From: Owenia fusiformis
Taxonomy: Eukaryota > Annelida > Polychaeta > Sabellida > Oweniidae
NCBI GenBank assembly: GCA_903813345.2
Contig: CAIIXF020000001.1
Span: 5,394,001-5,458,000 of the forward strand
DNA: 64,000 nt
Direction of reading: 5' to 3'
The notes beneath the pieces are model-generated. The model did not search any database and was not told the origin of the DNA. It saw nothing but the letters and a program-made list of their open reading frames with translations. This document shows, piece after piece, positions 2,533-34,008 of the stretch (the stretch's first letter is position 1; each line of letters begins with the position of its first letter). The position numbers were made by a program, and so were the translations under genes.

Positions 2533-3509
2533 TCTCGCGAATAGGCCTACGGGCGTTTATTTTGCACAGGGCGTTTATTTGAAAGAATTTTTAATAAACG
2601 CCCATGGGCCTATATTAAGAGGGAGAAAACAATTTTCCAAGGAGGATAGGCGTTTATTTAGAGGAATAGCTAGGGGGATATTATCGATTGTATAGTTGAC
2701 ACATGGCCTTCATACTCACGCACTAGTATGATCACGAACGTGGGCAAAAACGTTGACCAATATGTGACCTCATTTTTATTAATCATTTGTACTTGAACGA
2801 CATTAATCACGTATTACCTTACATTATGTACTATTCGCAATTTCATCCCTTTTCTCGAATGTTTTGCCAACTGGGCATTTATTTGAAATAATTTTTAATA
2901 AACAAATTTATATTGGAAAGTTAATCCAATAGCCAGCCAATTTACCTTGAAGGTGTGAAATATATGAATAGCATCGTGAATAGCCCTATTAAGATAGGCT
3001 AGGCTAATTCTGTTAAAACTATACTCATATTAATCACGTATTATTTTGGTAAATAAATGTCATATTTTGTTAAATTAAAAGTGTTTAGCATAAACTTCTC
3101 TAGATAAAACCAATATGATTTAATCTTTTAGAATTAATTCACCTAACTTTTTTACAATCAATAAATTCAGAAAATTACTTAACATTTCCGATTTATATCT
3201 AGTTTCTAATTTATCCCTAATTCTTTCAAAATTCATCAATATCATAATGAAAGGTACATCTAATTGTTTTTATAGATATTTAAATATGGTGGGGTCGAGT
3301 TGACTAAGGGTTGAGTTGACCAAGGGTTGAGATGACTTGGGGTCGAGTTGACTAAGGGTTGACTTGACTTGGGGTCGAGTTGACTAAGGGTTGACTTGAC
3401 TTGGGTTGAGTTGACTTGGCGTTGAGTTGACCAGTTACCTTTTTAAAGAGGGAAAAACCTTTTCATACACCCCACTTTCAAATAAACGCCCATGGGCCTA
3501 TTCGCGAGA
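2533..3509. mobile_element. Small inverted-repeat DNA element (MITE-like), unknown family
   Basis: Inverted termini read TCTCGCGAATAGGCC at 2533 and its complement ending at 3509. Both continue inward to a GGGCGTTTATTT block, for about 34 bp of imperfect terminal repeat. The interior is AT-rich without a coding frame and contains the short minisatellite at 3291-3436. No clear target-site duplication was found, so the superfamily is left open. It lies just upstream of the first exon of the C8orf34-like gene. Confidence 0.6.
3291..3436. repeat. Short minisatellite, GAGTTGACT-type units
   Basis: Tandem, partly degenerate units of about 13-26 bp are built from GGTTGAGTTGACTAAG and GGGTCGAGTTGACT. 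It is similar in style (GGTTGAGTTG core) to the larger array at 8070-9170, suggesting a shared origin or convergent low complexity. Confidence 0.75.
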
Positions 3510-5668: not shown

Positions 5669-8600
5669 GTTAAATATGAATATTAGCATGGTGCTGAAGG
5701 ATTTTTCTTATATGTACTAGGTGGCATTGGGTTAAACATAATTTGAAGTTCACAATATACATTTACTGTGCTTTTTATGACACTACCAAGAAGAAGTGAC
5801 ATATTTTTTTGTATCTCATACTTGAGTGGGTTTGCGGTAGATATCACCTGGGAATACATATCATATCTGAGGAGCAGGCAGGATATATTGTATATGTCCC
5901 ACTCCAGACCAAATGAAGGCAGATATAATATATCCATCCCACTCCTGGGAATTTTTCAAAAGTTTAAAAAAGTTTAATTTTTTTTAAAGTTTAGATGTTT
6001 CAATTTAATTGTATTGAACGAAAGGAATATTACGAAAATGTTGAATATAAATTGTGCTTTCACAGTATAGGCCTATCTTGTCATTTGAAAAGGTGGAACC
6101 CCAAACCCACACAAGTATGAGATACACCAGTTATGTACGGTCGGTTTTGGATATAGGGAATATCCAAAACCTCCCAGTACATAACCCTTATATATTGTTG
6201 TCATTTTTTGACTGGCACGGTGGTGGGTATTAACTCAGCATTATAAAAGTGATTACGCTTTTTTAACCATTTGCACTAACTTATGAGGTGACTGCATTTT
6301 GTCGTATTGATGCCTTAATTGAGCAGGTCGTTGTTCCCCCCTCAAAAAAGAGGAGATGCAAAAATCTTTCCTTATAAGGTTAAAATATTTCCCATGATGC
6401 AGTTCGCAGAGGAACAAATTTATACTTCCTTGTTTTCCCCCATAGCTTTAACATGGGGATTGTCACACCTATTTTTCAAACGATATATTTGTTTATATTC
6501 CCGTACGAGAGCACAGAAAAAATTATCAGAAACCGCGAAATGGACAATTGCCTAAATTCGTCTCAATATAAGAATACCATATAAAATGCTTTTTACATGT
6601 ATATTGTATGTTTGATCTTTTTATGAATTCTTTCCATGCTTTTACATCCTTTGTTATTTTTAGCTCAATTGTGACTGTAAATGTAATGTGAACTTAAAAA
6701 TCATTGCTTTATGTTTAAATCAACCAAATATCTCCTCTGAAATAAGGATGATTTGTCATCAATGTGGAACTCTAATGTGGAAAAGAATGGTGCTTTTTAT
6801 GTGCTAATAACTAACAGGGAACATGCTTCAAATCATGAATGGAGAAAAGGGTATCAGCCAATCTACACCTGGAAAGAAAATCCATGATTTACTTCATAGC
6901 TTGTATATTCTGGTATTTGTAATAGGATTAAAGTTGGGAATAGTTGCATGAATTCTAATGGTAATACGGAATGGTTAGTTTAGCATGTATCTGACACTGA
7001 AAAAAATATGTAATGACATACTGTACTTCAACTAATATTTGATGCTATTATATTTTGCATTTTACGATTTTGAAATTTTGCAGCAATATGTATTCATTTT
7101 TGCTAAATTTCGGTTTTTCGAAATTTTTCGGCTATTAATTTTTCTGGATTTGTGAGCTCTCAAAATGTTTCCAGCTTCTTTAATTCTTTGATTTAAATCT
7201 TTTAAAATCCAAAATGAAATTTAGGAAACATTGTCTTTTAATTCCAACCTTGTATTGTCCAGCATTGGACAAAATATTGTCAACATATTGACTGAAATAT
7301 ATTCGTGGGAGATTCGTGACTGCTATATTCCATGAATTAGAATTATTGGAATTTTGCGTCTATTATATTTCACGAATTTTACTGAAACACATTGATACAC
7401 TGGTAAAAATAGTTGAATTTAATCATATGGCTTGTGTTTCCAGCAGGTGGCATGTCCCAGAGCAATGAAGAATGGGATTCCAACACAAAGACAAAGTCCC
7501 AGAATTTTGATGAATTGTTTACAGAGACACAACAGAAGAAAACTGCAGCCATTAAGAAACAGACTGCAAATTCAACATCAAAGAATCTGTGGCGTACTGA
7601 AGCTGAGGTAATATTGCATCTTTTTGATAAATGTACAGTAATGTATTTCTTGACTTCACAATTGTGCACATTTAGAATGTCATCATAATCTTTTCAGATA
7701 GCATCAGGTTTAAGATAAAACATTTTCCCCAAAATCACGGAGTGCGATTGAAAGATTTGTCTGGTATTGGGAAGCATGCTACTTTTCATAAGAACACCAA
7801 GAAAACTTCATCAATTAATTTTGAAGCAATAGGTTTGGTTATACCAAAGAAAATCACCTACTCCATGCAATGGATATATCATTTGTAGATAGTTTTAATT
7901 TCTGTTTGAAGTCCAATAATGCTAGTGTACTCTAAAATGGCACAATATAGTGACATGATAATATTTTCATATATTTAATTTATGCATTGGGTCTTTTAAT
8001 TTTTTTCATAAAAAGTTTTTTTGAACTGCTAGAGTTTGAAAATTTAAAACCTATCATATTCATAGGAGAAACATTTGAAAGGGAGTTGTCAAGGGTATGA
8101 GTTGTCTAGTGGTTGAGTTGTCAAGGGTATGAGTTGTCTAGGGCTTCAATTGTCTGGTGGTTGAGTTGTCAAGGGTTGAGTTGTTTAGTGGTTGAGTTGT
8201 CAAGAGTATGAGTTGTCTAGTGGTTGAGTTGTCAAGGATTGAGTTGTCTTGTGGTTGAGTTGTCAAGGGTATGCGTTGTCAAGGGTTGAGTTGTCTAGTG
8301 GTTGAGTTGTCAAGGTATGAGTTGTCTAGTGGTTGAGTTGTCAAGGGTTTAGTTGTCTAGTGGTTGAGTTGTCAAGGGTATGAGTTGTCTAGTGGTTGAG
8401 TTGTCAAGGATTGAGTTGTCTGGTGGTTGAGTTGTCAAGGGTATGAGTTGTCTAGGATTGAATTGTCTGGTGGTTGAGTTGTCAAGGGTATGAGTTGTCT
8501 AGGGTTGAATTGTCTGGTGGTTGAGTTGTTAATGGTATGAGTTGTCTAGGGTTGAATTGTCTAGTGGTTGAGTTGTCAAGGGTATTCGTTGTCAAGGGTT

Positions 8601-11600
8601 GAGTTGTCTAGTGGTTGAGTTGTCAAGGTATGAGTTGTCTAGTGGTTGAGTTGTCAAGGATTGAGTTGTCTGGTGGTTGAGTTGTCAAGGGTATGAGTTG
8701 TCTAGGATTGAATTGTCTGGTGGTTGAGTTGTCAAGGGTATGAGTTGTCTAGGGTTGAATTGTCTGGTGGTTGAGTTGTTAATGGTATGAGTTGTCTAGG
8801 GTTGAATTGTCTAGTGGTTGAGTTGTCAAGGGTATGAGTTCTCTAGGGTTGAGTTGTCTGGTGCTTAAGTTGTCAAGGGATGAATTGTCTAGGGTTAAGT
8901 TGTCTGGTGGTTGAGTTGTCGAGGGTATGAGTTGTCTAGGGTTGAGTTGTCTGGTGGTTGAGTTGTCGAGGGTATGAGTTGTCTAGGGTTGAGTTGTCTG
9001 GTGGTTGAGTTGTCGAGGGTATGAGTTGTCTAGGGTTGAGTTGTCGAGGGTTTGAGTTGTCTAGGGTTGAGTTTTCTGATGGTTGAGTTTTCAAGGGTAT
9101 GAGTTGTCTAGGGTTGAGTTGTCTGATGGTTGAGTTGTCAAGGGATGAATTGTCCAGTTATTGAATTGTCACCTGGTTATTTGAAATAGTACAATAGTGC
9201 AGTGAATGGGCAATGCTTTTTGTAATTCTCTTTAGGACCATGACTTCACTTACCAAAGTTCAGGCTACACAGGTCCAAGACGAGCAAAAACAGGTGAAGA
9301 CTCCTTGGCATCAGAACTAATTGTTACTCACAGTTCTAGGACCAAAGAAGACCCCATACAAACTGCAGCAGTTACATCAGGGTAAATTGATAATAGGCTC
9401 GAAGCTTAAAGATTTACTGTATGTATGTCACTAGACAACACTAGGCAGGCATGCTTTTTGAAATGATTGCTTTCAACATTTTATACTCTTTTTGTAAACT
9501 TCCTATTAACAAGAAAAAATAAATAGTTAGGTAGTCAAATGCTGGGGACATGAGAAAATTCTTTCATCCAATATGTGTTGATTCCAGGAGCAAGAGAAAG
9601 GGCCAGGCAGTGGATGCTCATAAACACAGGAAAAAGCTAGAAGAGATGATATTATCAGAACAGAAGGCTCAGGATTCTGGTTACTATGATGAGAGAGAAG
9701 AGAAAGACGATGCACTGGAGGTCTTAGGTAATGTTTCAGATGTTTTATCCAATTACAATATTTAGATAAGAGACTACAGGTTCAGTATATGCATACTAAT
9801 ATGGAATATACTGAAAACTGAAAACCCTTGACCTACACCTTTGGCCAAAGACTGACTGTGCATCAAAAAATATAATTTATATTAGTGTTTCAGTCATTTC
9901 TCATTGTAAGTACATTGTATAAGTTTCAAGTTTAAAAACTGATTAGTTTTGGGGTATTCCGGGTCAATTTTTAAGGTGGCCATTTTGGATTAAGGGCTGA
10001 AAATCCACAATGTTCACATTAACATTTACCCAGAATGACAGTTCTAAAACTTGGAACTAATTAAGAACTTTATTACATGTATTTACAATGAGAAAATGGC
10101 ACTTGACTGAAATATGAATTTGAATTACAATTTTTTGATACCCAGTAAGTCTTAGGGATGTTTCTTGGTATACAACTTTACAACTGATTTGTTTTGGGGC
10201 ATTATGGGTGAATTTTAAGGTGGCCATTTTGGATTTTCTGTCCTGAAATCTTATCTGTAAAGATTTTTATAGTTTTGAGTCAAAACATTTCTTGGATCAA
10301 TCTGAAATTTTCAGAGATGTTTCTTGGTATAAAAGTGTACAAATGCTTAGTCTTTGGACATTCTGGGTAAATTTTCAGGTGAGATGGGTGTCACAATTCA
10401 CAGTCATTTGTGTGAAATCTAATTTTATATTGTCAAGGACACCTGGTCCTTTATTCACTATATAAGAATCCACCCCATTTCTCTTAAAGGGAATGCGAAG
10501 TTTTGTCCCTTAAACTTGATAATAAGTTAGAATAAAGATACATCTTTCATTCCAACTTCGTTTTATTGTTCTATCATCACCCCCTTAATTGTTATTGAGC
10601 CCCGGGTTTTGTATATGAACTGGACCACGGAGCTGCCATTTCAACCGTAAAGTGGTTCTTTACGACATTGTTATGACGTCATTGATGCCAGATTGATGCC
10701 TTGGCATTCCAAAAGTTTTGTGGCGCCATTTTTGAATCAAAAATTAAATGCTGAGTTGTTGCCATTCCAAAACCGAATAAATCATTTTAAAGGAACTAAA
10801 AGAATACGTATATAAACTTACCACCCATAATAAAGAACGATTTCAATAGAATATTAACGCCGGCATTTTCGGAATTGCTTTTTACCTATCAAGACATGGA
10901 ATGCAGGTTACATTTATTCGTTATTTAGCCTACACTTGAAATAATCTGGGATTCGTGATGATTTAATTTGCTTGTCTCATTACAAAAATACGTGTTCGTA
11001 CTTCAATATTCATTGCATTTATGTTTATCTTTAACATAAGTATTCGAAGAAAATTTTAAAATTAAATTTAAACTGTATTCAATTACTATCATGGATTCTC
11101 AGCCTCACGTCGCATTTTTACGGGGACCGTACAGTCTATCATTTCTGCGGTAAGTAAAATCTCTACGGTTGCCAAAGTATTTCTGCAGTCAGATAATTTA
11201 GCAGTCACATTTGCTAAGATAGCTGTACGGCGTATTTTGATTATGAGGAAAAACTACGATTCCCGTACGGCTGATAAACGATGACGCACGATAAGTGTAG
11301 GGCGGCCCTACGACGTGCGTAGTTTTTCTTGAAGGCCTCCACATGTACAAGGGGTTCTACGGTTCGGAAAGGTCAATTGTAACCTATGAAATCCAAGCGC
11401 AGCCGCAAGTCGACCGTGAACCTGACGTACAGCCGCCGTGGGACCTACTTTTTGGCTGCTACTTGTTGATATCTACAGTGACCATAGAAAAGAAAAAGTT
11501 CTCCGACTCTACGCCCTGTAAAAACTTAATTTGCCGTGTACGTAGACCGCAAGGTGACCTTAAGGTGACTGTAGTTGTCCTTTGATTGCCGAAGAAATTT

Positions 11601-14600: not shown

Positions 14601-17600
14601 CACATCTAAGTACAATTCTGTTATCTAATGTTATGTATATGGACCTTATTCTGTGACAATGGCGATTTTTGCTTTTTGTCCTGAAAACTAGTTTTGAAAT
14701 CTTGTCTTCTCCATAATAAATACACAACTTGACAATATTATTAAAGACAAATGGGTAGATTTGATATATTGATGATAACATATGTGAAAGCAATCCAGAA
14801 ATAACTCAGACAGAAATCCCAATTTCAGAAAAAACTTTGAACATTTTTTGACGATTTCACCGAGAGCATTCCTGGACGAAAAATGTGATATCCCTAATTA
14901 AATCATACAGTTGTTGATGCTACACAAGTAAAATTTTTCTTCCATTGAACACTCTATTTACACGCAAAAAATGACAAAGATTCTTTCATTATTGAGAAAG
15001 ATATTCCAAAATTAGTGGGTGGCATTTTTTGTGTCACCATGTACATTCCAAGAAATTTTGGACACCCTGCAAGTCATAGATTGAAGGTGCAAGTTGAAGG
15101 GTTTTTAGTATATTCCTGCTTATATACCCATTAGTAAATTAGTGTTTTGGTTGACTTTCATGACTTAGAAAATGGAAAATCTTACTTCATAATATATTTT
15201 TTCAGAAAATGCAGGAGACCTAGAATCTGAAGGTATTAGCATATCTAAAGGTCAAGGCGTCAAAGTCAGTAGGTCACAGAGGAGGTCACCTGATGAAAAA
15301 GTCAAAGTTAGCATATGTGCTATGTGTGCCAAGTAAGTAGAAATGCCTAAAATAATTAATAAAAGAAATGATTGCTTAGATGAAAAAAAATGATTAATCT
15401 ATTTTAGAATCAAAAATAGCCTAGTTGCTTATTATTATCAATTGGTGATTGCATGTCTGATGAATCATTTCATCTACTTAAGGGTTATGAGTGGCCAGAG
15501 AGGACCACAGCCAAGTGAACCTGCCATGGGTAAGTCTTCCCTCTAGAGCCTACACTGTTCATAATTTACAAGTACTGAATCTCACAAGTATTGTTTATTT
15601 GCATTATTCATCTTTCTCAAAAGTAATGGCACACATCAGGTTTTTTTGACGGCGGTTGGTTTGGCGGTTGGCTTCCAATAACTTAAAAAATACTTTTTAG
15701 ACTGACTTCAATTTTTTCAAAATCATCTACATGTTTTCAGATGTTCAAATCTGACTATGTATTAAAGATTTGACTTTCAATGCCCTTTTCAAGGTCAAAA
15801 AAGGTCATTTTCAACTTGCTTTAAATTGACCAATTTTTTTTCAAAATCATTTACATGTTCTCAACAGTTCATCAATGACATTCTCATGGTCAAAAAGGTA
15901 TTTTTCATCTTGCTTCAAATTGACTAATTCTTTTTTCCAAAATCATCCACAATTTCTCAGAAGTTCAAATCTGACTTTAAATATGAGATTTGACCTTCAA
16001 TGACCTTCTCAGGGTAAAAAAGGTCTTTTTTCTACTTGCTTCAAATTGACCAATTTATTTTTTCAAAATCATCTACGAGTTCTCAGAAATTCAAATCTGA
16101 ATTAAGATTGAACTCATAATATTGTGAGCACTTAGGTGGTGACATTTTGTCATTTTAATGCCTTGTTGTTCTTAGTGGTGTTCTCTTATTTTTGCATTAT
16201 GTACGCCGTACGCATTAAGGCATCAAAGTTGTACTGTAATTTGACAATAAATAATTTTGTATCAGATCATCAATTTAAATCTTTTTGGAAAAACAGTTTA
16301 CTGTGTAATCCTATGCTGTTTAGATATAATTCATGAAAAAATCAGCCAAACTCAATAGCCGTCAATGCTCTGAAAAGGGGAAATTCAATTTAAATTAATT
16401 CAAGTATTATTTTACGCGCTGCAGGTACAAGGTTTGGCGAGCTACCAGACTTTGACTATGAGACTGATCGAGATTTCCCAAGTCGACCACAATCATCAGT
16501 GCGTTATACACCAACGCCCCCTAGTGATGTGGAGGATTTTGAGAGTGTATCACAAGTGACAGGTCCTAGGAGACCTGTATGGCATAATGAGGTGAATTTC
16601 ATAACCAGTTTCTATCACAGTAATTTGTTCTGCTTGTTGTTATAAAGGTAGATATCACAAGTTTTTTTGATTTGTTTTTTGAATAAGCCATTTATTTTGA
16701 ATTTGGTGGATTTATTGACTCCCTTTTCACTTTTTTACATTTTAAGCTATATTTATGTATATTTGGCTTCCTGTTAATTTTTTGAGAAGTACTAAAATTG
16801 AAAAATTGAAACGCTTGAATTGAGTAGTTTTCCAATACATCACTGTTATATGAATTCTAATATCTGATGGACAAGTGGATACTGGTTCATATCTTTGTAT
16901 AGATTGATATACGCTTTATGGGTCATTGGAATACATGACAGGCATCTTTAGCTCTATTTCTTCCATTTTCACCCGCCTTGCTACTTTAATTCCTGCAATG
17001 CGTTTATTGAAATCTTTACCAGTACATGTAGTTCTCTTTTTGTCGAATTATTTAAGGGCATCAGAGTTTTTTCTTTACACGCTACAGTTGTGCGGCCATA
17101 TTCATCAAAGGGGGGGGCAGAAACAGGGACTTTCCCTCCTCTTGTTCAAAAGATAATGAATATTTTTTTGTTTCAACAGGACTCTGATGCAGATACTATA
17201 ACACCCAGGAAGGGAACACATATGTTTTCCAAGGTTGTAGACACGGATCAACATCCTGAACAACCCATGTATGCTGGGTAAGCATGTATTTTATTTCAAA
17301 GTCGAACTAAAGGCTGTGTAATTTGCTAGTCTTTCTTAGACATAAATCTGACAATAACTTGTGAACAGGGCACTTAGATGATAGTTTCAATGAAAACAAT
17401 GCAATGGACTAGAATTGTGTTAAAATAAGAAATAAAACTCCATATATTGTCTCATCTAAATAATTGAAATAAACAGTACTTATTATCAATTCAAATCCTG
17501 GTACATTTTAGCTGGCGAAGAACTTAGTTAACAGATTTGATTCAAATTCAACATGCTGATGCCTTTGGGACATAGAACTCCGCTTAAGAAAGAAATTTCT

Positions 17601-20600
17601 AATGATTAATGAATTAAAAGTGGCCACCATTTTCATGAAAAAATACAATTTTTGATAACCGAAATACCAGTTGGAGGTCCCATGCAGTGTCTCATCATAG
17701 ACACTGTGGCGGTCAGATGGAGAAATAACCAAATATTGGTGAAAATAGTCCCCTTTTTAACCTCTTGAATCCCAGGCTCTAAAATTGGCATGAAACCAGA
17801 GAATTTTTCATTTTTTGCCACCTTTTGACATTTTATTACATACCTATACAACTTTAGATGCTCAGCTTAGTAAAATTGGACGGCAGTGATCATTTCTACA
17901 CGTTTTAAAACAATTTTTTTGTAAATTGGATGAAAATTGTTCAAATGAGAGCAATTTTTGTGAAAAATTTTGTGACGGATTTTCTCGTCCCTCTGGGCAC
18001 CAGTCTTATTTCATTTGTGACGGATATATCCGTCACTCTGGGTATTCAAGAGGTTAATCAGTATATTCATCCAATTTTGTTATAGCTTATAAAATATTTA
18101 TTCTTTTACATTATTATTTTGTAAGAATATTTCGGATACGTGGTCTATCCATACCTTGTAATTCTTTTGACTGTAATCTGATATTTCAGTACGAGATCTC
18201 CAATGTCTCCTAAGAGGGCCACAGGAACCCCTAGTCGATCACGTAGCCCTGGGAGGAATGCCCAACTGTCTGGCACTCTCCCTCTACGCTCTGTAGACAT
18301 GCGCAGCAGTTATTCTAACACCCAGGTAGCAGATGATGAGAAGTCCCTTGAGTTTATGAGGAAGACATGGAGTCCCAATACACATTCCTTTGACACTGAG
18401 GTGAGTCCCAATGCACATTCCTTTGACACTGAGGTGAGTCCCAGTGCACATTCCTTTGACACTGAGGTGAGTCCCAGTGCACATTCCTTTGACACTGAGG
18501 TGAGTCCCAATGCACATTCCTTTGACACTGAGGTGAGTCCCAGTGCACATTCCTTTGACACTAAGGCGAGTCCCAATGCACATTTCTTTGACACTGAGGT
18601 GAGTCCCAATTCACATTCCTTTGACACTGAGGTGAGTCCCAATGCACATTCCTTTGACACTAAGGTGAGTCCCAATGCACATTCCTTTGACACTGAGGTG
18701 AGTCCCAATGCACATTCCTTTGACACTGAGGTGAGTCCCAATGCACATTCCTTTGACACTGAGGTGAGTCCCAATGCACATTCCTTTGACACTGAGTGGA
18801 GTCCCAATGCACATTCCTTTGACATCAAGGTGAGTCCTAATGCACATTCCTTTGACACCGAGGCAAGTCCCAGTGTCATTTGACTCCAATATTGGGATTT
18901 TGCCAAATAGTCTGGCAGAAATATAGGGTATTTTGACATTCAATCATTTTCTTCGGATTACAATGTTTTTTTAACTTATCAACATGAATATAGGATTGGG
19001 ACCTCAAAACCACCGGATGCCGGTGCGGCACCCTTGGGCAACTCTCTACAGAGCATTTCTTATACCCCCCTGATAAAATATACAGGGGGTACTATAAGAC
19101 ACCCTCATATCTCAGATACTGATAAGTATATTAACTTGAGATTTACAGGAATTAGTTTTAGTATGATGCTTGACATGTATGACAAAAATCAAGAAAAAAT
19201 CTTAATCCGTTGCTATAGCAACAGTAACAGAACACTATTTGTTACCGTAGAGATGCATTATTTTGCTGATTTTCAACATTTCTTCATATAGTTGATTCTT
19301 AAACTAGTATATAGTATTACACTAGTATATAGGACACTGCATATTTTATATTTAGTATATACATGTATATCAAATGAAATCTAATGAATTTATACAGTAG
19401 TGAGGTTGGCATATAGTCTAGACTTTGGCATTTAGAACATGCATCATAATAAAATCTAATGTAATTATACAATAGAGAGGTTGGCATAGTCTAGATTTTG
19501 GCATAATGTCTAAATTTTATAAGCATTGGCTTTCCTCATCTGAGCAATCAGACTACTGGGGGGGGCCCTGTATAGCTTCTGGGGGCCACTGGGGACCATC
19601 GTATAGCTTTTAAAGGCACTGTGAATATTTGATTTAACAGTGAATTCAATTGGATATTGAAGCTTCGAGCTTTGTTGTTAAAATAGCTCTGTGGGTTCTT
19701 CATAAAATAATATGGATTGGTCTTGTAATGTAAAAAAGACAAGATTAACACAGAATTAATATACTCATAAAACTGTACTTTATTCCAAGTAAAAGACTAA
19801 ACATGTACAATTACACTCTTCAGTATAAAATAAAACTGTTCAAAGATAAAGAAAGAATGAAAATGAGATTAATAAGATGAAAAGAAATGATGTGTGATGT
19901 TCCCCCCGATCTAACTCTCTACTGAATGAAACCCAAAATTTCTCTTAAATACCCCCAAGTTATAAAAAATGAAAGGCAATCCCTTACCCTACAAAACCTA
20001 TAAGAAACCCATAGAAAGATGGCAGCACAGTACGGTGAATCAACATGAAAAATGCTATACAACCCCCACCCAAATAAAATGACAATTCTCCTGACATTGT
20101 ACGTACTAAAAAAACTGAAAATATGCTAAATCTAAATAAATGTATATGATATTCTAACAATGTCCTATATGAATGTTTACTAACACAGTGCCGCATACAT
20201 AGTTCGTGTATAATCCATATCCATATCCAATATCCATATGAAATATCCACGCAGAGTTCGTGCAAATATCCTTGCTTCATACGTAGTTCCTGTTGATAAA
20301 TGTCGTTATAATAAACCATAATAAGTTCCGATTTTATAATCCGCGTATCTAGTCCTGGATCCAATGCGATGCTGTAATACGTGCATCTAGTCCACGATGT
20401 AATATTTTCGAATCCAAAATATGCACCGTCTTAGTAGTCGAAATAATATCCATAATCCGTATATCACATGCACGTCCGCATCGTGTCCATTATCGAATAT
20501 GTCCGTATCCTCGCTGAAGAATCCATAATAAAATATCCATTTCCTTGTAGCAGTGTTCATAATAAACGTTTTCGTTGGAGAAAAGAATTGTTTATAATAA

Positions 20601-26600: not shown

Positions 26601-29600
26601 CCTTACTACACGAATGGAATATGAAATTCCATCATAATTTTCTATAACAAACCACCAGTCTCAAACTACCCCCTCCATTTTCATGGAATTTCATATCTCT
26701 TAATAAAACCAGATAAAACGATCCCTATGTGTATTTTCGACAAGCACACGTTTAATTACTGTAAAACATAAATTGTCTTCAGAAATCTCATTTTAAAAGT
26801 TACTTTTTCAATCTTCTCATTATCTTAAATGCTTACTTCTTATTGTTCACTCTTAATTGTTTACTTCTAATTACTTATTTCTAATTGTTTACTCTTTATT
26901 GTTACTTCTAATTGCTTATTTCTAATTGTTTACTTCTTATTGTTACTTCTAATTGCTTATTTCTAATTGCCCGGGCAACCACATATTACAAAAATGACAA
27001 ATCTCATTCATCCATTCAGCGACACAAAACAAACATGCATTCTTGCCAAATACGGATGTTTGACTCTTTCTATGCATAATTAATAAAGAAAAATGTTCTT
27101 CAATACTACAAAATGGTCCTGTTTTCATACTTGAAAGGCTTTACCTCCCCTAAACAATTTCTTTTGCAAGTCATGTTTTCATCCACTAGCCATTAAAATA
27201 TACCTATATGCAATTCCATTGAGAGTTTGAAATAAAAGATCTTTTAAGGTATGCATTGATGACTTTTACTTAACTCTGTATTATGTACTTTTTCCCTTTT
27301 AAATAATCACGAGATAAACAATGCCCATGCAGCACACATTTAACTAACTTACTACTAACCGACTATCTACCCAACTACCTAACTAACTAACTAGCTAACT
27401 AAATATGTTCCCTTTATATTTACTTATACCAGAGACATATAAAATGTTTTATAGGTCTCTGCTTATACACACTATATACATTCTTTGACTAAACAATCAA
27501 TTAATCCCATCCATATCTTGTAGGCGCTCTTCTATTTCTTGCATTTCAATATTGAAGCAAGACTATGCCTTAATAAACCATCCGACGATTTCTTTTCTTC
27601 ATTTTGATTTTCAGGTGAAACCGTGATTTTGCCATCTGTGTCTTTCTCGTCATGGAGACTTACATTTTTATCTGACCAAATCAAATCAAAGTTTTCATTA
27701 TTTTCGTCTTTCTCATCTTCATTTTCCCCAACGGCACCTAACACGACAGAACACCCATTTTCACATTGATCCTTCCCCTCCATATTCACAAGGTATCAAC
27801 TTCTATTTAATGAATGAGGTATAATCTATATGTAATATCAAAACACAAACAGAATCAAGTACGCTTTTATCATCAATACAGGGATTTTTACAAAATACAA
27901 AGACCAAAAACTAGATCTTGAACATTCAAATCAAATATTCTCAATTAATAATTTCGTCTACAAGGTCTAACACCAATTCGGGACTATCTTAACACTATAG
28001 CCACAGCCAAACAAATAGATACGCGCTCGATTTTGCCAATTTTAAAGCAATGCGTCTTAGCATGCACAATTGTAGAAATAAAGGATAGAAAGAAAGTAAA
28101 AGAAAGTGTTTTTGAAGTAACTAAAACAGGAGCCTGTTACATGAGCTTCTTGTTGATAGCAAATACAGAAATTAGTACAACGCTGAAATGCAAGCGTTTT
28201 CGTATTTCAATTTAAAAGTAACTACAACGGGAGCCCGTCTTCATTACTAAATGATGATTCCCTTAAGAATAGCACGTGTAAACATAAAATATGCTCGACT
28301 CTTTGTCTTCTCTTTGTTCACAAGATCAAGGTAAAGTTACGCATAAATTAACTGAGCGTACACAAACGCAAGATCATTATCAGTCTTTTAAGTGAAGACT
28401 GTCAACTTAAATGCATGCATAAACCCCAGGGCATAAACAAACATTGTGCATAAAGACAAAGTTAATACTTAATAGTACAGTGAAGACAAATACTCTTCAT
28501 TCAAAGAGAATATGAACTGAATATGAACTGAATATGAAGACAAAATCCTAAAGAAAGAGTTGAAGAGAACTAATCTTCACTCTTCGGTATAGAATGAACC
28601 TAACTTAAAAGAGAGAAACGAAGAGAACTAATCTCCGCTCTTTTGTAAGAGTAAAGCTAGATTGAAGATGCGAAGAGAACTAATCTCCACTCTTCAGTGA
28701 AAGTTGATCAAACTTAAAGATGTGAAGAGAACTAATCTCCACTCTTTAATGAAAATAAAAACACTAAAACTGCGAAAAGAATCTCTTTACAAGACAAAGA
28801 CCAATCCCACCGCTGCCACCAATGAAGCTTCGAGCTTTGTTGTTAAAATAGCTCTGTGGGTTCTTCATAAAATAATATGGATTGGTCTTGTAATGTAAAA
28901 AAGACAAGATTAACACAGAATTAATATACTCATAAAACTGTACTTTATTCCAAGTAAAAGACTAAACATGTACAATTACACTCTTCAGTATAAAATAAAA
29001 CTGTTCAAAGATAAAGAAAGAATGAAAATGAGATTAATAAGATGAAAAGAAATGATGTGTGATGTTCCCCCCGATCTAACTCTCTACTGAATGAAACCCA
29101 AAATTTCTCTTAAATACCCCCAAGTTATAAAAAATGAAAGGCAATCCCTTACCCTACAAAACCTATAAGAAACCCATAGAAAGATGGCAGCACAGTACGG
29201 TGAATCAACATGAAAAATGCTATAATATTTTCTCTAACAGTGAAATTTAAGGGTTATGAAACATTTCAGATTGACAACATCATGAATTTTTTGTCAGTGA
29301 ATTTGGGCTTTCTTCTTGGGGCCACTGGGGGCCCTCGTATGGTTTCTGGAGGCCACTGGGGGCCTCTGTATAGCTTCTAAGGCCACCATATAGCTTTTTT
29401 GGGCCACTAGGGGCCTCAGTATAGCTTCTGGGGGCTCCTGTTTAGCTTTTTGGGGACACTGGGGGGCCACCATATAGTTTTTGGGAGCCACCGTATAGCT
29501 TCTGGGGGCACTAGGGGCCACTGTATAGATTCTGGGGGCTACTTTGGGCCCCTGTATAGCTTCTGGAAGTCACCATATAGCTTCTAGGGGCCATTTGGAG

Positions 29601-32600
29601 CCCCTGTTTAGCTTCCGGGGGCTACCATATAGCTTCTGGGGGCTACTAGGGGTGCCTGTATAGCTTCTGGGGGCTCCTGTTTAGCTTCTTGGGGACACTG
29701 CATACCATCCTATAGCTTCTGGCGGCTACTTGGGGCCAGCGTATAGCTTCTGGGTGCCATCATATAGCTTATGGGCCTACCATATAGCTTTTGGGGGCCA
29801 CTGTAAAGCTTCTTGGAGCTACTGGGGACCACCATATAGCTTCTGGGGGCTACTAGGGGCCACTGGATATGCTTCTGGGGGCCACCATATAGCTTTCCAG
29901 GGCCACCATATATCTTTATGGGGGCACCAGGGGCCACTGTATAGATTCTGGGGGCTACTGGGGGCCCCTTTATAGCTTCTGGAAGTCACCATATAGCATC
30001 TAGGGGCCATTTGGAGCCCCTGTATAGCTTCTGGGGGCTACCATATAGCTTCTGGGGGCTACTAGGGGTCCCTGTATAGCTTCTGGGGGCTACCTTATAG
30101 CATCTTGGGGCCACTGGGGGCCCCTGTATAGCTTCTGGGGCCACTGGGGTCCATGGTATAGCTTCTGGGGTCCACTGGGGGCATTTTTTATTTGAACCTT
30201 GAAAATTAATCTATTTTGCCAGATTTGGTGGCTGTCGAGGTGGGGTAAAATTAAATTATAATTTTTTTTCAAATTCATGTGACTATTTATCTCTAAAGCA
30301 TCACTTTTTTACCTAGGGAGCATAACCTTTTCAAGAAGTGTTATTTTGGACCACCTTTTTAAAGAAAGTGAAATGTAAAAACCTGATTATTAAGTGATGT
30401 TACCATAGCAACTGAAATGTTAGATATATTACATAAACCATATGATGAATTATTTCATCTTTACTTCTAATCATGTACATTTGTATATAACAGATACGTA
30501 TATACTTCAGATGCTTAAAGAATCAAGAATATGAAGAAAATTATGAAAATCAGCAAACCAATGCATTTCTACGGTAACAAATAGTGTCTATTTCTGTTGC
30601 TATAGCAACGGATTAAGATTTTTTCTTGATTTTTGTCACATGTCACATTGTCATATTTTATCAGGGGGGTATAAGAAATGCTCTGGAGAGAGTTGCCCAA
30701 GGATGCCGCTCCGGCATCCAATGGTTTTGAGGTCCCAACCCTATATTCATGCTGATAAGTTAAAAAAACATTGTAATCCGAAGGAAAGGAGACAATACTA
30801 CTACTACTTCTTCCTGGTTATTATTTCTATCATGTGATGTCCAAAATGACAAGGGATGCAATAAAATAGGTTGTGTTTGATGAGATATTCTACTCCACAG
30901 AGTTGCCATTTTTAAGTTCATTTTAACATTTTTTTTGTTATTTTTAGGAATTACTTTTAAAACAGCGGCACGCATTAAAACAATTGTAGGACACCCACGT
31001 CCCACATACAAACATGCATTTACATGCATTGTCTATTAGAACAATGAATATTACTTTCTTTGCATTAAAACAATTGTAGCACACCCACGTCCCACATACA
31101 AACATGCATTTACATGCATTGTCTATTAGAACAATGAATATTACTTTCTTTGCATTAAAACAATTGTAGCACACCCACGTCCCACATACAAACATGCATT
31201 TACATGCATTGTCTATTAGAACAATGAATATTACTTTCTTTGCATTAAAACAATTGTAGCACACCCACGTCCCACATACAAACATGCATTGTCTATTAGA
31301 ACAATGAATATTACTTTCTTTGCATTAAAACAATTGTAGCACACCCACGTCCCACATACAAACATGCATTTACATGCATTGTCTATTAGAACAATGAATA
31401 TTACTTTCTTTGCATTAAAACAATTGTAGCACACCCACGTCCCACATACAAACATGCATTTACATGCATTGTCTATTAGAACAATGAATATTACTTTCTT
31501 TGCATTAAAACAATTGTAGCACACCCACGTCCCACATACAAACATGCATTTACATGCATTGTCTATTAGAACAATGAATATTACTTTCTTTGCATTAAAA
31601 CAATTGTAGCACACCCACGTCCCACATACAAACATGCATTTACATGCATTGTCTATTAGAACAATGAATATTACTTTCTTTGCATTCAAACAATTGTAGC
31701 ACACCCACGTCCCACATACAAACATGCATTTACATGCATTGTCTATTAGAACAATGAATATTACTTTCTTTGCATTAAAACAATTGTAGCACACCCACGT
31801 CCAGTGTAGACACTAAGGGGCTGAAACCTGCTGGTCAAAATGATATTACGGACCAGTTGCAATGTTATTTTCCTATACCTAGTGAAAAAATCAACTGGTC
31901 CGTATCAAAAGTAACCAGATAATGACCAGTGGACCGGCTGTTAATGACAACACTGCCCACGTCCCACATACAAACATGCATTTACATGCATTGTCTATTA
32001 GAACAATGAATATTACTTTCTTTGCATTAAAACAATTGTAGGACACCCACGTCCCACATACAAACATGCATTTACATGCATTGTCTATTAGAACAATGAA
32101 TATTACTTTCTTTGCATTAAAACAATTGTAGCACACCCACGTCCCACATACAAACATGCATTTACATGCATTGTCTATTAGAACAATGAATATTACTTTC
32201 TTTGCATTAAAACAATTGTAGCACACCCACGTCCCACATACAAACATGCATTTACATGCATTGTCTATTAGAACAATGAATATTACTTTCTTTGCATTAA
32301 AACAATTGTAGCACACCCACGTTCCACATACAAACATGCATTTACATGCATTGTCTATTAGAACAATGAATATTACTTTCTTTGCATTAAAACAATTGTA
32401 GCACACCCACGTCCCATATACAAACATGCATTTACATGCATTGTCTATTAGAACAATGAATATTACTTTCTTTGCATTAAAACAATTGTAGCACACCCAC
32501 GTCCCACATACAAACATGCATTTACATGCATTGTCTATTAGAACAATGAATATTACTTTCTTTGCATTAAAACAATTGTAGCACACCCACGTCCCACATA

Positions 32601-34008
32601 CAAACATGCATTTACATGCATTGTCTATTAGAACAATGAATATTACTTTCTTTGCATTAAAACAATTGTAGGACACCCACGTCCCACATACAAACATGCA
32701 TTTACATGCATTGTCTATTAGAACAATGAATATTACTTTCTTTGCATTAAAACAATTGTAGCACACCCACGTCCCACATACAAACATGCATTTACATGCA
32801 TTGTCTATTAGAACAATGAATATTACTTTCTTTGCATTAAAACAATTGTAGCACACCCACGTCCCACATACAAACATGCATTTACATGCATTGTCTATTA
32901 GAACAATGAATATTACTTTCTTTGCATTAAAACAATTGTAGCACACCCACGTCCCACATACAAACATGCATTTACATGCATTGTCTATTAGAACAATGAA
33001 TATTACTTTCTTTGCATTAAAACAATTGTAGCACACCCACGTCCCACATACAAACATGCATTTACATGCATTGTCTATTAAAACAATGAATATTACTTTC
33101 TTTGCATTAAAACAATTGTAGCACACCCACGTCCCACATACAAACATGCATTTACATGCATTGTCTATTAGAACAATGAATATTACTTTCTTTGCATTAA
33201 AACAATTGTAGCACACCCACGTCCCACATACAAACATGCATTTACATGCATTGTCTATTAGAACAATGAATATTACTTTCTTTTCTCCAGGATGAAGGCC
33301 GTAACATGGCCACACCAGATATACTATCCAAAAGAACAAAAGGCTGGCAGATACCAGCAGATGATTCCGATACCAGTAGTGTAGACTGGGACAAAGGTAA
33401 GCTACCATTTAGTGATTCAGAAAGGTGTTGTTATACCAATTCCTCTGAGACACTTACACCAGTGTTGAGTGGCAATTTACAAGGCACAAAGAAATTAAAA
33501 GGAGAAAAAATTGTGTACATGTTAGTGGTGTTTTTAGAATACTTAAATCAACAGATGTTGTATATGGTGGAAACTTAGACCAAAAAATGAATCATTTGTG
33601 TGGTATTTTATACGCCAACCAGTGTTAGCCATTGGAAAAACATGACATGAAAGTTTTTGACTGTTAAATAAAAAGTTTTTTAAAAAAGATTTTAAGTAAA
33701 TAATAACATGCCTGTTTTTTTATTATTAGCGCTATATTCTTTCTATTATGTTTCATGTGTAAAACCAGGCTTCTGATTTTGTCCAGCAGTATCATTGCTA
33801 AAGCATGAGGCTATTATGTACTTAGCCAGCTCAGCAGTAGGAGATCATCTCAACTGAGATCTTTAAATGCTCCCATGTATATGAAACCGTATAACCTTGT
33901 TTTGTTTTACTTTATCTTTCAGATGGCAATGTGACAGGGCTAAAAAGACATAAACCAAAAACTAAAAGTGGTTTATCTGCAAGCCAAGGATCTAGATCTG
34001 GTTTGTAG
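3843..34008 (+). CDS. C8orf34: C8orf34-like protein, 15 exons (575 aa predicted)
   Basis: Coding exons by frame and GT-AG sites: 3843-3857, 4183-4272, 4761-4806, 5015-5122, 5489-5668, 7447-7607, 9236-9381, 9588-9727, 15206-15332, 15483-15529, 16425-16591, 17180-17277, 18190-18400, 33291-33396, 33923-34008. The lengths sum to 1728 nt and every junction keeps phase, which strongly supports the model. Recalled similarity to human C8orf34: ELMAKVIDKMPEEPVPYII against its RII-alpha-like ELMTKLITETPDQPIPFLI; SYDKPW; KSQNFDELF; an acidic DDALEVL segment; and a KVSICAMCAK Cys motif. The family is uncharacterised. The N-terminal helix pair resembles a PKA RII dimerisation/docking domain, so dimerisation or anchoring is an inference. 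The rest looks disordered and rich in Ser, Pro and charged residues. Exon 13 may be longer (see the donor array). Confidence 0.85.
5811..6125. mobile_element. MITE-like element in intron 5
   Basis: Near-perfect inverted ends of about 24 bp (GTATCTCATACTTG at the left, CAAGTATGAGATAC at the right) flank 315 bp of non-coding AT-rich DNA. No target duplication is obvious. Superfamily unknown. Confidence 0.65.
7441..7607 (+). CDS. C8orf34: C8orf34-like gene exon 6 with a tandem CAGCAG acceptor
   Basis: The acceptor reads TTTCCAGCAG, so splicing may use the first AG (exon from 7444) or the second (exon from 7447). Both keep the frame and differ by one residue (junction A-G-G-M against G-G-M). NAGNAG acceptors are a known source of one-residue isoforms. 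The exon encodes the conserved F-D-E-L block shared with human C8orf34, followed by a Lys/Gln-rich stretch. Confidence 0.8.
8070..9170. repeat. Minisatellite of about 32 bp units in intron 6
   Basis: About 1.1 kb of tandem units alternates GGTTGAGTTGTCAAGGG with TATGAGTTGTCTAGTG-like halves (32-33 bp, with 16-bp half-units). There are higher-order blocks: the stretch near 8400-8580 recurs near 8650-8830. The array ends about 65 bp before the exon 7 acceptor. No open frame of interest. Confidence 0.92.
9236..9727 (+). CDS. C8orf34: C8orf34-like gene, exons 7-8 (acidic/charged central region)
   Basis: Exon 7 (9236-9381) follows the minisatellite and ends with phase 2 at GG/GTAAAT. Exon 8 (9588-9727) encodes a Lys/His-rich stretch (HKHRKKLEEMILSEQKAQD) and then an acidic DEREEKDDALEVL run. 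This matches the order in human C8orf34 (a Gln/Lys run, then an LSQDSFES-like block, then EEDIDNEDDAMELL), the second clearest anchor for the assignment. Confidence 0.82.
9936..10390. repeat. Three diverged copies of a roughly 230-bp tandem repeat
   Basis: Blocks at about 9940, 10175 and 10335 share TTTTGGGGYATT...GGGT(A/C)AATTTT and, in the first two, AAGGTGGCCATTTTGGATT. The copies are well diverged and non-coding, in intron 8. Confidence 0.55.
10484..14546. mobile_element. 4.05-kb TTAA-flanked DNA transposon, Kolobok-like, non-autonomous
   Basis: TTAA sits at both ends (10484-10487 and 14543-14546). The inverted termini AGGGAATGCGAAGTTT (10488) and its complement (ending 14542) are exact over 16 bp. 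Subterminal inverted motifs around a TGACGTCATTGATGCC-like block occur near 10675 and 14350. TTAA targets are used by piggyBac and Kolobok; termini starting AGG rather than CC favour Kolobok. No transposase frame was found, so it is a non-autonomous or gutted copy. The stretch at 11090-11640 is more GC-rich and different in composition, perhaps captured or decayed DNA. It fills most of intron 8. Confidence 0.8.
12979..13046. repeat. C10 and G21 homopolymer runs
   Basis: A run of about 10 C near 12982 is followed by a run of about 21 G at 13026-13046, inside the Kolobok-like element. The two can pair as a hairpin, and the G run can form a quadruplex. The length is probably unstable or uncertain in assembly. 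Confidence 0.85.
15206..17277 (+). CDS. C8orf34: C8orf34-like gene, exons 9-12
   Basis: Exons are 15206-15332, 15483-15529, 16425-16591 and 17180-17277. Exon 9 ends with D-E-K-V-K-V-S-I-C-A-M-C-A-K, a short Cys-x-x-Cys segment that matches K-V-T-L-N-I-C-S-R-C-A-R in the human protein. Exons 11-12 are acidic and Pro/Ser/Thr-rich (E-L-P-D-F-D-Y-E-T-D, then T-P-T-P-P-S-D-V-E-D-F-E), with no recognised fold. Phases run 2, 1, 0, 2 at the four 3' ends. Confidence 0.8.
15640..16110. repeat. Tandem repeat of about 110 bp units in intron 10
   Basis: About four diverged units carry AAGGTC, TTGCTTCAAATTGACC and TTTTTTCAAAATCATC in order, after a unique lead with GGCGGTTGG. The same composite occurs in the opposite orientation at 50940-51340 in RPN2, and a single unit lies at 47805-47925. 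It is therefore a dispersed element with an internal tandem array, not a local expansion. Confidence 0.75.
17757..18057. mobile_element. piggyBac-like MITE in intron 12
   Basis: TTAA duplications lie at 17757-17760 and 18054-18057. The inverted termini start CCTCTTGAAT at both ends, with CC next to TTAA as is usual for piggyBac. The 293-bp interior is non-coding and contains a GTGACGGATATATCCGTCAC palindrome near the right end. It lies about 130 bp before the exon 13 acceptor. Confidence 0.82.
18190..18883 (+). CDS. C8orf34: C8orf34-like gene exon 13, short form to 18400, extendable through the donor repeat
   Basis: The exon starts after ATATTTCAG at 18190 (phase 2 in). The shortest form ends at 18400 with ACTGAG/GTGAGT, phase 0, which joins exon 14 (GAT GAA). 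The unique part is basic and S-P/S-R-rich (P-S-R-S-R-S-P-G-R). The same frame stays open through 15 repeats of an 11-residue unit (S-P-N-A-H-S-F-D-T-E-V) to a stop at 18881-18883. Because each later donor is also phase 0, forms with extra 11-residue units would still join exon 14 in frame. Failure to splice gives a truncated protein ending in the repeats. Confidence 0.8.
18371..18881 (+). repeat. 33-bp minisatellite that repeats the splice donor (15 units)
   Basis: The unit is AGTCCCAATGCACATTCC followed by TTTGACACTGAGGTG, so each unit border reads GAG/GTGAGT, a strong 5' splice site. GT donors occur at 18401, 18434, 18467, 18500, 18533, 18599, 18632, 18665, 18698, 18731, 18764 and 18830. 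GC donors occur at 18566 (AAG/GCGAGT) and 18863 (GAG/GCAAGT). The unit ending near 18797 has lost its donor (GAGTGGAGT). The period is a multiple of three and all donors are phase 0. Confidence 0.93.
22977..23095. mobile_element. Fragment of the CAGGCCCGTAGCCAGG-type MITE family
   Basis: The start reads CAGGCTCGTAGCCAGG. The following text (TCTTTCAAAATGATGCAGTTTCTCA, and an antisense-like GCACTTTTCGCATG segment) resembles the reverse complement of the interior of the element at 39529-39738. Only one end is seen. Confidence 0.5.
23339..24424. mobile_element. Transib-like DNA element with RSS-heptamer-like ends
   Basis: The termini are CACAGTGTTATAGCATG (left) and the complement of CACGGTGTTATAGCATG (right). 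AATAG lies directly outside both ends (23334-23338 and 24425-24429), a 5-bp target duplication. CAC-starting termini with 5-bp duplications are features of Transib and of RAG-related transposons, and CACAGTG equals the RSS heptamer; no nonamer was seen. A third copy of the terminus (complement, 23944-23971) closes an internal inverted repeat 23339-23971. No transposase frame, so non-autonomous. Confidence 0.65.
26246..26560. repeat. Diverged tandem copies inside the LTR element
   Basis: Four copies of CAACTTAGATGCAATATCCA-like units are spaced 80-110 bp apart. Further right, at 28556-28760, about four copies of GAAGAGAACTAATCTCCACT recur. Such short internal arrays are common in non-coding LTR derivatives. 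Confidence 0.7.
29296..30190. repeat. G-rich minisatellite, ATAGCTTCTGGGGGCCAC units
   Basis: About 30 degenerate units of 25-35 bp contain (C)ATATAGCTTCTGGGGGC with CACTAGGGGCC variants. The strand asymmetry is strong: GGGG runs lie on the plus strand. Open frames on either strand here (for example 29710-29937) are repeat translations, not genes. It is an expansion inside the right arm of the outer element; the left arm has only two or three units. Confidence 0.9.
30971..33282. repeat. 90-bp tandem array (about 24 units) ending at the exon 14 acceptor
   Basis: Units are nearly identical. Each contains TGCATTAAAACAATTGTAGC, ACACCCACGTCCCACATACA and an end GAATATTACTTTCTT. One unit (31241) is 10 bp shorter, and one carries a hAT insertion. 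The last unit passes directly into TTTTCTCCAG, the acceptor of exon 14, so the repeat contains the branch-point/pyrimidine-tract region. The minus strand is open through most of the array (30-residue repeats in frame) because 90 is a multiple of 3; I do not consider that a gene. Confidence 0.95.
31802..31955. mobile_element. hAT-type MITE inserted into the 90-bp array
   Basis: A 154-bp insert with termini CAGTGTAGAC and GACAACACTG (complement CAGTGTTGTC) is flanked by a perfect 8-bp duplication CCCACGTC (31794-31801 and 31956-31963). An 8-bp duplication and CAGTG ends fit the hAT superfamily. Inner CAACTGGTCCGTA and TACGGACCAGTTG arms make a hairpin. The array unit resumes exactly after the second duplication. 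Confidence 0.92.
33291..34008 (+). CDS. C8orf34: C8orf34-like gene, exons 14-15 and stop
   Basis: Exon 14 (33291-33396) follows TTTTCTCCAG directly after the 90-bp array and encodes an acidic/Ser stretch (A-D-D-S-D-T-S-S-V-D-W-D-K), ending phase 1 at AAAG/GTAAGC. Exon 15 (33923-34008) encodes a basic tail (L-K-R-H-K-P-K-T-K-S) and stops with TAG at 34006-34008. The C terminus differs from what I recall of the vertebrate protein and may be lineage-specific. Confidence 0.78.

Follow-up and report, generated by a model that had tools for sequence, protein, structure and literature searches.

The stretch analysed here (the window) comprises 64,000 nucleotides (nt) of the genome of the annelid Owenia fusiformis (GenBank assembly GCA_903813345.2, contig CAIIXF020000001.1, positions 5,394,001 to 5,458,000 of the forward strand; G+C about 35%), and its central feature is a minisatellite of 33-bp units, each unit spanning the end of a predicted exon and the 5' splice site (donor) that follows it. 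The exon belongs to a phase-consistent plus-strand chain running from 4183 to 33396, with one further doubtful exon after it; two exons within the chain, 11335-11553 and 15483-15529, are also doubtful. The concatenated translation of the chain (without exon 11335-11553) matches the Pfam family DUF5586 (PF17824; E value 3.2e-15, 56.5 bits against a cut-off of 26.6) over residues 1-275 of 482. We take DUF5586 to be the C8orf34 family, and the array is accordingly described here as lying at an exon end of a predicted C8orf34-like gene. An earlier reading of the same letters (the sequence-only reading) had numbered this exon 13; the chain gives 12 exons through the array exon, the two doubtful ones included, and the gene may start before the window. 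Neither the array exon nor the exon that follows it matches any Pfam family, and both are predicted from splice signals, phase and frame.

A minisatellite of repeated 5' splice sites

Tandem Repeats Finder reported 15.2 copies of the unit at 18370-18872, with 94% matches and no indels. Donor-like sites occupy 14 of the 15 unit junctions: twelve read GTGAGT (18401, 18434, 18467, 18500, 18533, 18599, 18632, 18665, 18698, 18731, 18764 and 18830), two are GC donors (GCGAGT at 18566 and GCAAGT at 18863), and the junction at 18797 has become TGGAGT, which is not a donor. The consensus unit in codon register is GTGAGTCCCAATGCACATTCCTTTGACACTGAG, translated VSPNAHSFDTE, and the reading frame stays open across the array from 18182 to 18883. 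Use of the first donor would give an exon of 211 nt and an intron of 14,890 nt, after which the reading frame carries on in phase 0 into the exon at 33291; both exons are open in a single frame only, and it is these sole frames that join. Much of what the sequence-only reading had said of the array was borne out: the twelve GT and two GC donors were counted exactly as it had listed them, all donors would join the exon at 33291 in phase 0, and the frame is open through all units. Its statement that every unit re-creates GAG/GTGAGT was correct in that the unit spans exon end and donor, but the hexamer itself stands at 12 of the 15 junctions.

Comparison of the exon with the next unit, read backward from the first donor, revealed 30 identical bases out of 31, followed by a difference at the two bases that make GT. 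This pattern indicates that one copy is fully exonic, while each of the others combines the exonic copy with a donor and lies at the presumed beginning of the intron. The frame is therefore open almost by construction: since the template unit is coding, all that is needed is a period divisible by three (one chance in three) and no stop at the seam. Eleven distinct substitutions separate the 15 units, of which 2 are synonymous (27% would be expected under neutrality), and the 9-base donor is variable at 3 of 9 sites compared with 6 of 24 in the remainder of the unit. These tests, which have little power, gave no sign of selection on codons or donors within the array. In this small sample, the edge units 1, 14 and 15 carry 10 of the 18 differences and units 10-13 are identical, a distribution that looks as it does in arrays homogenised at their centre. 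Predicted folding of the array RNA was less stable than that of all 100 of 100 shuffles (z +5.3), suggesting that the donors are probably accessible.

Several other identities for the repeat were set aside. A transposon or a dispersed satellite was rejected, as a word search of the animal's own 498-Mb genome (very common words left out) matched the window array once only and found a second, 90-bp array in the same intron nowhere else. Use of internal units as acceptors, as in an exitron or a ratchet, is unlikely: the AG|GT sites at the 15 junctions score -3.3 to 1.4 against 8.9 at 33291, with the caveat that the accepted exon start at 18190 itself scores very low. Pfam matches of the repeat translation (PCC_BT at E 1.3e-5, over its cut-off, and weaker others) were taken as chance matches of low-complexity sequence.

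Table 1. Features of the array locus, in window coordinates
Feature	Position	Strand	Basis
Predicted coding exon that ends at the first donor; length 211 nt; TRSPMSPKR...SPNTHSFDTE	18190..18400	+	exon chain phase, single open frame
33-bp minisatellite, 15.2 copies, unit = exon end + 5' splice site	18370..18872	+	
First GTGAGT, proposed main 5' splice site, opens the 14,890-nt intron	18401..18406	+	by analogy to sister arrays whose exon ends are conserved
Repeated donors: 11 more GTGAGT, two GC donors (18566, 18863), one donor lost (18797)	18434..18868	+	
Final unit, degenerate and shortened, holds the frame-ending stop (TGA ending at 18883)	18865..18899	+	
Another minisatellite (26 copies of a 90-bp unit) at the opposite end of the array intron	30972..33283	+	
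Predicted next coding exon, joined in phase 0; its acceptor scores 8.9 in our own matrix	33291..33396	+	

Donor arrays at exon ends across the genome

We searched the animal's own genome (525 contigs, ten of which, C1-C8, C10 and C12, span 32 to 62 Mb) for closely spaced triplets of AGGTRAGT and for the variants GAGGTGAGT, AAGGTGAGT, CAGGTGAGT and AGGTAAGT, grouping neighbouring places. The census gives a lower bound: the general pattern covers the first contig up to 19.4 Mb, two variant searches are listed in full, and the two others reach 31.3 Mb and 12.6 Mb of C7. It yielded at least 47 arrays of repeated AGGTRAGT (8 from the general pattern, 24 and 15 more from the variants). The 5' flanks of the other 46 arrays were read and exons called by eye. 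In 37 of the 47, the window array included, the first donor ends an apparent coding exon; two of these (L101 and L102) are copies of one locus. No coding exon was seen at the remaining ten (L036, L038, L037, L082, L086, L087, L088, L095, L096 and L104), among which L036 and L038 represent a single dispersed element in two copies. In 25 of 36 arrays exon end and repeat unit agree over at least 13 bases (22/32 and 3/4; ungapped, mismatches allowed, L072 excluded).

The census does not speak for a general excess of donor-like arrays. Placements numbered 570 for three copies of AGGTRAGT against 517 for the reversed pattern, 30 against 27 for GAGGTGAGT, 57 against 49 for AAGGTGAGT, 113 against 12 for CAGGTGAGT and 213 against 357 for AGGTAAGT; only CAGGTGAGT clearly exceeds its control, placements cluster in few arrays, and overall enrichment is not claimed. 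Outside the array, one of the three AGGTRAGT sites in the window is a donor of the exon chain, too few for a baseline. As a separate observation, the excess of repeated CAGGTGAGT and its lack for AGGTAAGT point to an unexplained preference for GTGAGT over GTAAGT.

Exon peptides from 33 arrays were scanned in Pfam, with E 0.005 or better taken as support; L071 (19 residues) and L101 and L102 (16 residues) were left out. Fourteen of the 33 had a match at this level: AAA_2 (3.2e-27), BTB (2e-14), UDP-glucose dehydrogenase (1.5e-10), tudor (1.1e-10), ERAP1_C (7.3e-10), C2 (8.5e-8), PX (2.9e-5), Reeler (1.3e-4) and kringle (2.6e-4), together with the weaker or possibly coincidental Il2rg (2.4e-7), coiled-coil DUF7518 (4.3e-4), MIR (0.0016), Ras (0.0033) and TPR_6 (0.0047). 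Six of the peptides were also compared with solved structures, which returned SMC4 (7.9e-32; exon ending ...DPFSEGIVF), UDP-glucose dehydrogenase (2.2e-18; ...KTYGLGK), NCS-1 (2e-10; ...VFDANK) and Rab27A (1.5e-8; ...LWDTAGQE). For the peptide of L074 the structure matches were to WD-repeat proteins, at E 1.8e-6 over the whole sequence and with no individual stretch passing; that of L107 had no match among solved structures. The SMC4, NCS-1 and WD-repeat exons are supported by structure and have no Pfam match at E 0.005; family or structure support thus extends to 17 of the 33 peptides. Several candidate names are unsupported: DIP2 for L107 (no structure match), DCAF7 for L074 (other WD-repeat proteins only), SRP72 for L073, a proton-channel-like protein for L099 and a cadherin for L075.

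The consequence of using the next donor was measured in 35 of the 37 arrays (L102 was dropped as a copy of L101 and L098 for irregular spacing), with exon frames chosen by us. Moving to the next intact AGGTRAGT would shift the frame or introduce a stop in 28 of the 35 (24/31 and 4/4), so the first donor must serve there. At SMC4 and Rab27 a stop lies at the seam to the next donor, and the distance to it is 44 bases at NCS-1 and 83 at UDP-glucose dehydrogenase; these four exons end within conserved stretches, and a working protein therefore needs the first donor. In the other seven (the window array, L034, L077, L084, L093, L100 and L109) the next donor is in frame and open, and at L093 the added residues would land inside the C2 domain. 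Distances to the next donor are divisible by three in 10 of 35 arrays, or in 6 of 31 by the array period entered by hand; at L034 and L084 the first spacing is unlike the array period. Given that the in-frame share is not above one third, the open frame at the window array can be explained by chance, without selection.

Some of the arrays showed further duplication. L101 and L102, on contig C6 at 14.30 and 14.34 Mb, are near-identical copies of exon and donor array separated by about 33 kb; this recent segmental duplication could serve to date the turnover of such arrays. Upstream of the exon that seeds L079 (L112:450-800), the acceptor side (TTTTTCAGGATATGGCAC...) is repeated too, and both exon borders are duplicated. 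The UDP-glucose dehydrogenase exon (L115:750-1500, L097:1-194) is a second such case: tandem copies of the acceptor together with a large part of the exon (TTTTTGCAGCCTGGGTTAGA...) lie upstream, and tandem copies of the donor side lie downstream.

Precedents and the choice of donor

Repeats of this kind have been described before. Turri and colleagues are said to have described, in 1995, a human IFI6 minisatellite that provides several splice donors, its unit reportedly being 12 nt long. According to excerpts of PMC4526556, two downstream repeats are used as donors there and produce three messenger RNA (mRNA) species. IFI6 resembles the window array as a minisatellite at an exon end with donor-bearing units; it differs in that three mRNAs are reported for it, whereas the array here has a 33-bp unit and is read from genomic sequence. 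The closest likeness is with the "mirages" of amphioxus, repeats spanning exon-intron boundaries that are described in a 2010 paper on amphioxus globins (PMC3087553) and reported, in the excerpted text, from Adh3 and the globins BflGb6 and BflGb9 (PMC3087553) and from troponin C and PGBD5 (PMC3902484). Like mirages, the window array spans a boundary, carries AG/GT splice signals in many units (12 GT and 2 GC at 15 junctions), has a homogenised centre and diverged edges (in a small sample) and is one of several loci in its genome (37 of the 47 listed arrays at coding exon ends). Unlike the excerpted reports, which concern cephalochordates, the present genome is that of an annelid; more loci are found here than those reports name, and in-frame open repeats go unmentioned in the excerpts.

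The length of mirages is variable, and somatic instability is reported for Adh3 (PMC3087553); the excerpted mirage data, Adh3 included, suggest that regular splicing is undisturbed (PMC3087553, PMC3902484). Excerpts of PMC3087553 also discuss intron gain by tandem duplication of an AG/GT proto-splice site; here, too, a duplicated AG|GT segment creates splice signals, but the copies sit in an existing intron and give no evidence of a new one. Human segmental duplications, too, have tandem repeats at exon-intron boundaries (PMC2812944, in part), and earthworm metallothionein genes have first-intron minisatellites, for which the excerpt of PMC12783039 does not state whether they span a splice site. 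Our literature searches, which included annelid and mollusc terms, returned splice-boundary arrays from amphioxus and human only. The sequence-only reading had thought a coding array of splice donors unusual; given the excerpted amphioxus and IFI6 reports (PMC3087553, PMC4526556) and the recurrence at many exon ends here, the window array is a new instance of a described kind of repeat, not a unique one. This suggests that mirages are more than a cephalochordate oddity.

We consider it likely that the array belongs to the mirage type of minisatellite and marks a genuine 5' splice site, with the first donor (18401) mainly used and the others tolerated as intronic passengers. A tandem duplication of 33 bp, taking in 31 exonic bases and the GT at the intron's 5' end, would have been amplified by slippage or unequal exchange to about 15 units, most of them re-creating GAG|GTGAGT. 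The spliceosome would then mainly pick the exon-proximal donor, join it to 33291 and discard the rest as intron, and the surplus donors would be tolerated, probably as neutral sequence, the next few being used to a minor extent at most (11 added residues each). By analogy with the conserved sister genes, we infer that regular splicing is undisturbed by the array. The sequence-only reading had named one dominant donor with passengers as its alternative, and with the next donor breaking the frame in 28 of 35 arrays, this alternative fits better than the ladder of isoforms that it had put first.

A number of observations weigh against this interpretation. Donor choice at the window array is read from genomic sequence, and this array is among the seven whose next donor keeps an open frame. 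All twelve GTGAGT donors receive like scores, so that the motif itself gives the first no edge. The acceptor at 18190 is weak (0.1 in our own matrix), a donor-like CAG|GTAGCA stands at 18326 inside the array exon, and the substitution tests, as noted, have little power. Among the sister arrays, the stretch shared by exon and unit is only 4-11 bases in 11 of 36, where the unit is mostly intronic; not all 37 therefore have the full anatomy of the window array. Sixteen of the 33 exon peptides (L034, L035, L039, L040, L075, L076, L079, L080, L083, L090, L092, L098, L099, L100, L106 and L107) are without database support. Finally, IFI6 itself is reported, in the excerpted text, to use downstream repeats as donors (PMC4526556).

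The main rival is the isoform ladder, in which many or all donors are used, the proteins differ by 11-residue VSPNAHSFDTE units, and copy number alters the protein. The phase shared by all donors, the open frame and the equal GT scores would all suit it, as would the six further arrays in frame and open to the next donor and the precedent of the three IFI6 mRNAs (PMC4526556, excerpt). We nonetheless regard it as unlikely. It is possible but unsupported: in-frame distances are at chance, neither codon nor donor constraint was seen, and the reading frame would break in most arrays. Mirages are reported, in the excerpts, to splice normally (PMC3087553, PMC3902484). An exon of 211 nt would also have to swell, at the extreme to 673 nt, next to an intron of 14.9 kb, and exon definition disfavours such lengthening beside a long intron.

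The array might instead be coding throughout, with a far donor used and the protein carrying about 14 repeats as a disordered SP-rich stretch. The frame is open to 18883 and the last GTGAGT (18830) scores equal to the first, but there is little sign of constraint on the protein (of 11 distinct changes, 2 are synonymous against 27% expected), an internal exon of 640-673 nt would be required, and most sister arrays would break the frame; we judge this very improbable. Equally improbable, in our view, is that the donors form a landing array for the U1 small nuclear ribonucleoprotein whose effect is to suppress premature polyadenylation within the long intron or to increase expression. Twelve good U1 sites in about 435 bases, in RNA that folds less stably than every shuffle, would favour such a role; at NCS-1, SMC4 and others, however, the arrays look like by-products of duplication. 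That the copy number is an assembly artefact is scarcely credible: tandem arrays are often mis-sized, but the units differ in a non-repeating pattern, a 62-Mb contig carries the array, and an error would alter the count, not the kind.

A broader proposal, which we hold as unlikely, is that minisatellites arising from 5' splice sites make up a class found throughout this genome, that the spliceosome reliably picks the first of their many donors, and that in the in-frame minority (such as the window array and the C2-domain array L093) low-level use of later donors would yield protein length ladders varying with repeat number between individuals. It has long been asked how the spliceosome selects one 5' splice site when identical ones compete, and most work on the matter has relied on engineered constructs. 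This genome supplies dozens of natural tests, in arrays of 3 to about 30 near-identical donors, and for several of the genes conserved proteins tell where the exon should end. Should the first donor win in every case, nature would have shown a position rule; if it does not, in-frame arrays would give proteins that depend on repeat number. The arrays are also a trap for gene prediction, as exon ends may be placed at any unit.

Other repeats and features of the window

The second minisatellite in the array intron stops 8 bases before the acceptor at 33291, and its last unit provides TTACTTTCTTT, most of the pyrimidine tract; a single intron thus has a minisatellite at both ends. Repeated acceptors in this 90-bp array were considered and rejected, with TTGTAG scoring -4.6 to -6.4 in the 6 of 24 sites shown. 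An insert of about 150 bp within it (31802-31955), with ends CAGTG...CACTG, resembles a small inverted-repeat transposon. Elsewhere in the window, minisatellites at 8083-9154 (about 1 kb) and 3292-3431 (about 140 bp) have a motif in common in their GGGTTGAGTTGTCTAG-like units, and an irregular array at 29312-30182 consists of GGGGCCACTGTATAGCTTCT-like units with periods of 20, 31, 52 and 104 bases.

A search of the genome for hemerythrin gave no match. Eryth_link_C (PF16915), a family of annelid blood-pigment linkers, has three matches over its cut-off, clustered on one contig, one of them with an internal stop; these matches speak for an annelid rather than an amphioxus genome. On the minus strand of the window, 60074-63610 holds an open frame of 1178 residues with endonuclease/exonuclease/phosphatase and reverse transcriptase domains, a long interspersed nuclear element (LINE)-like element without stops.
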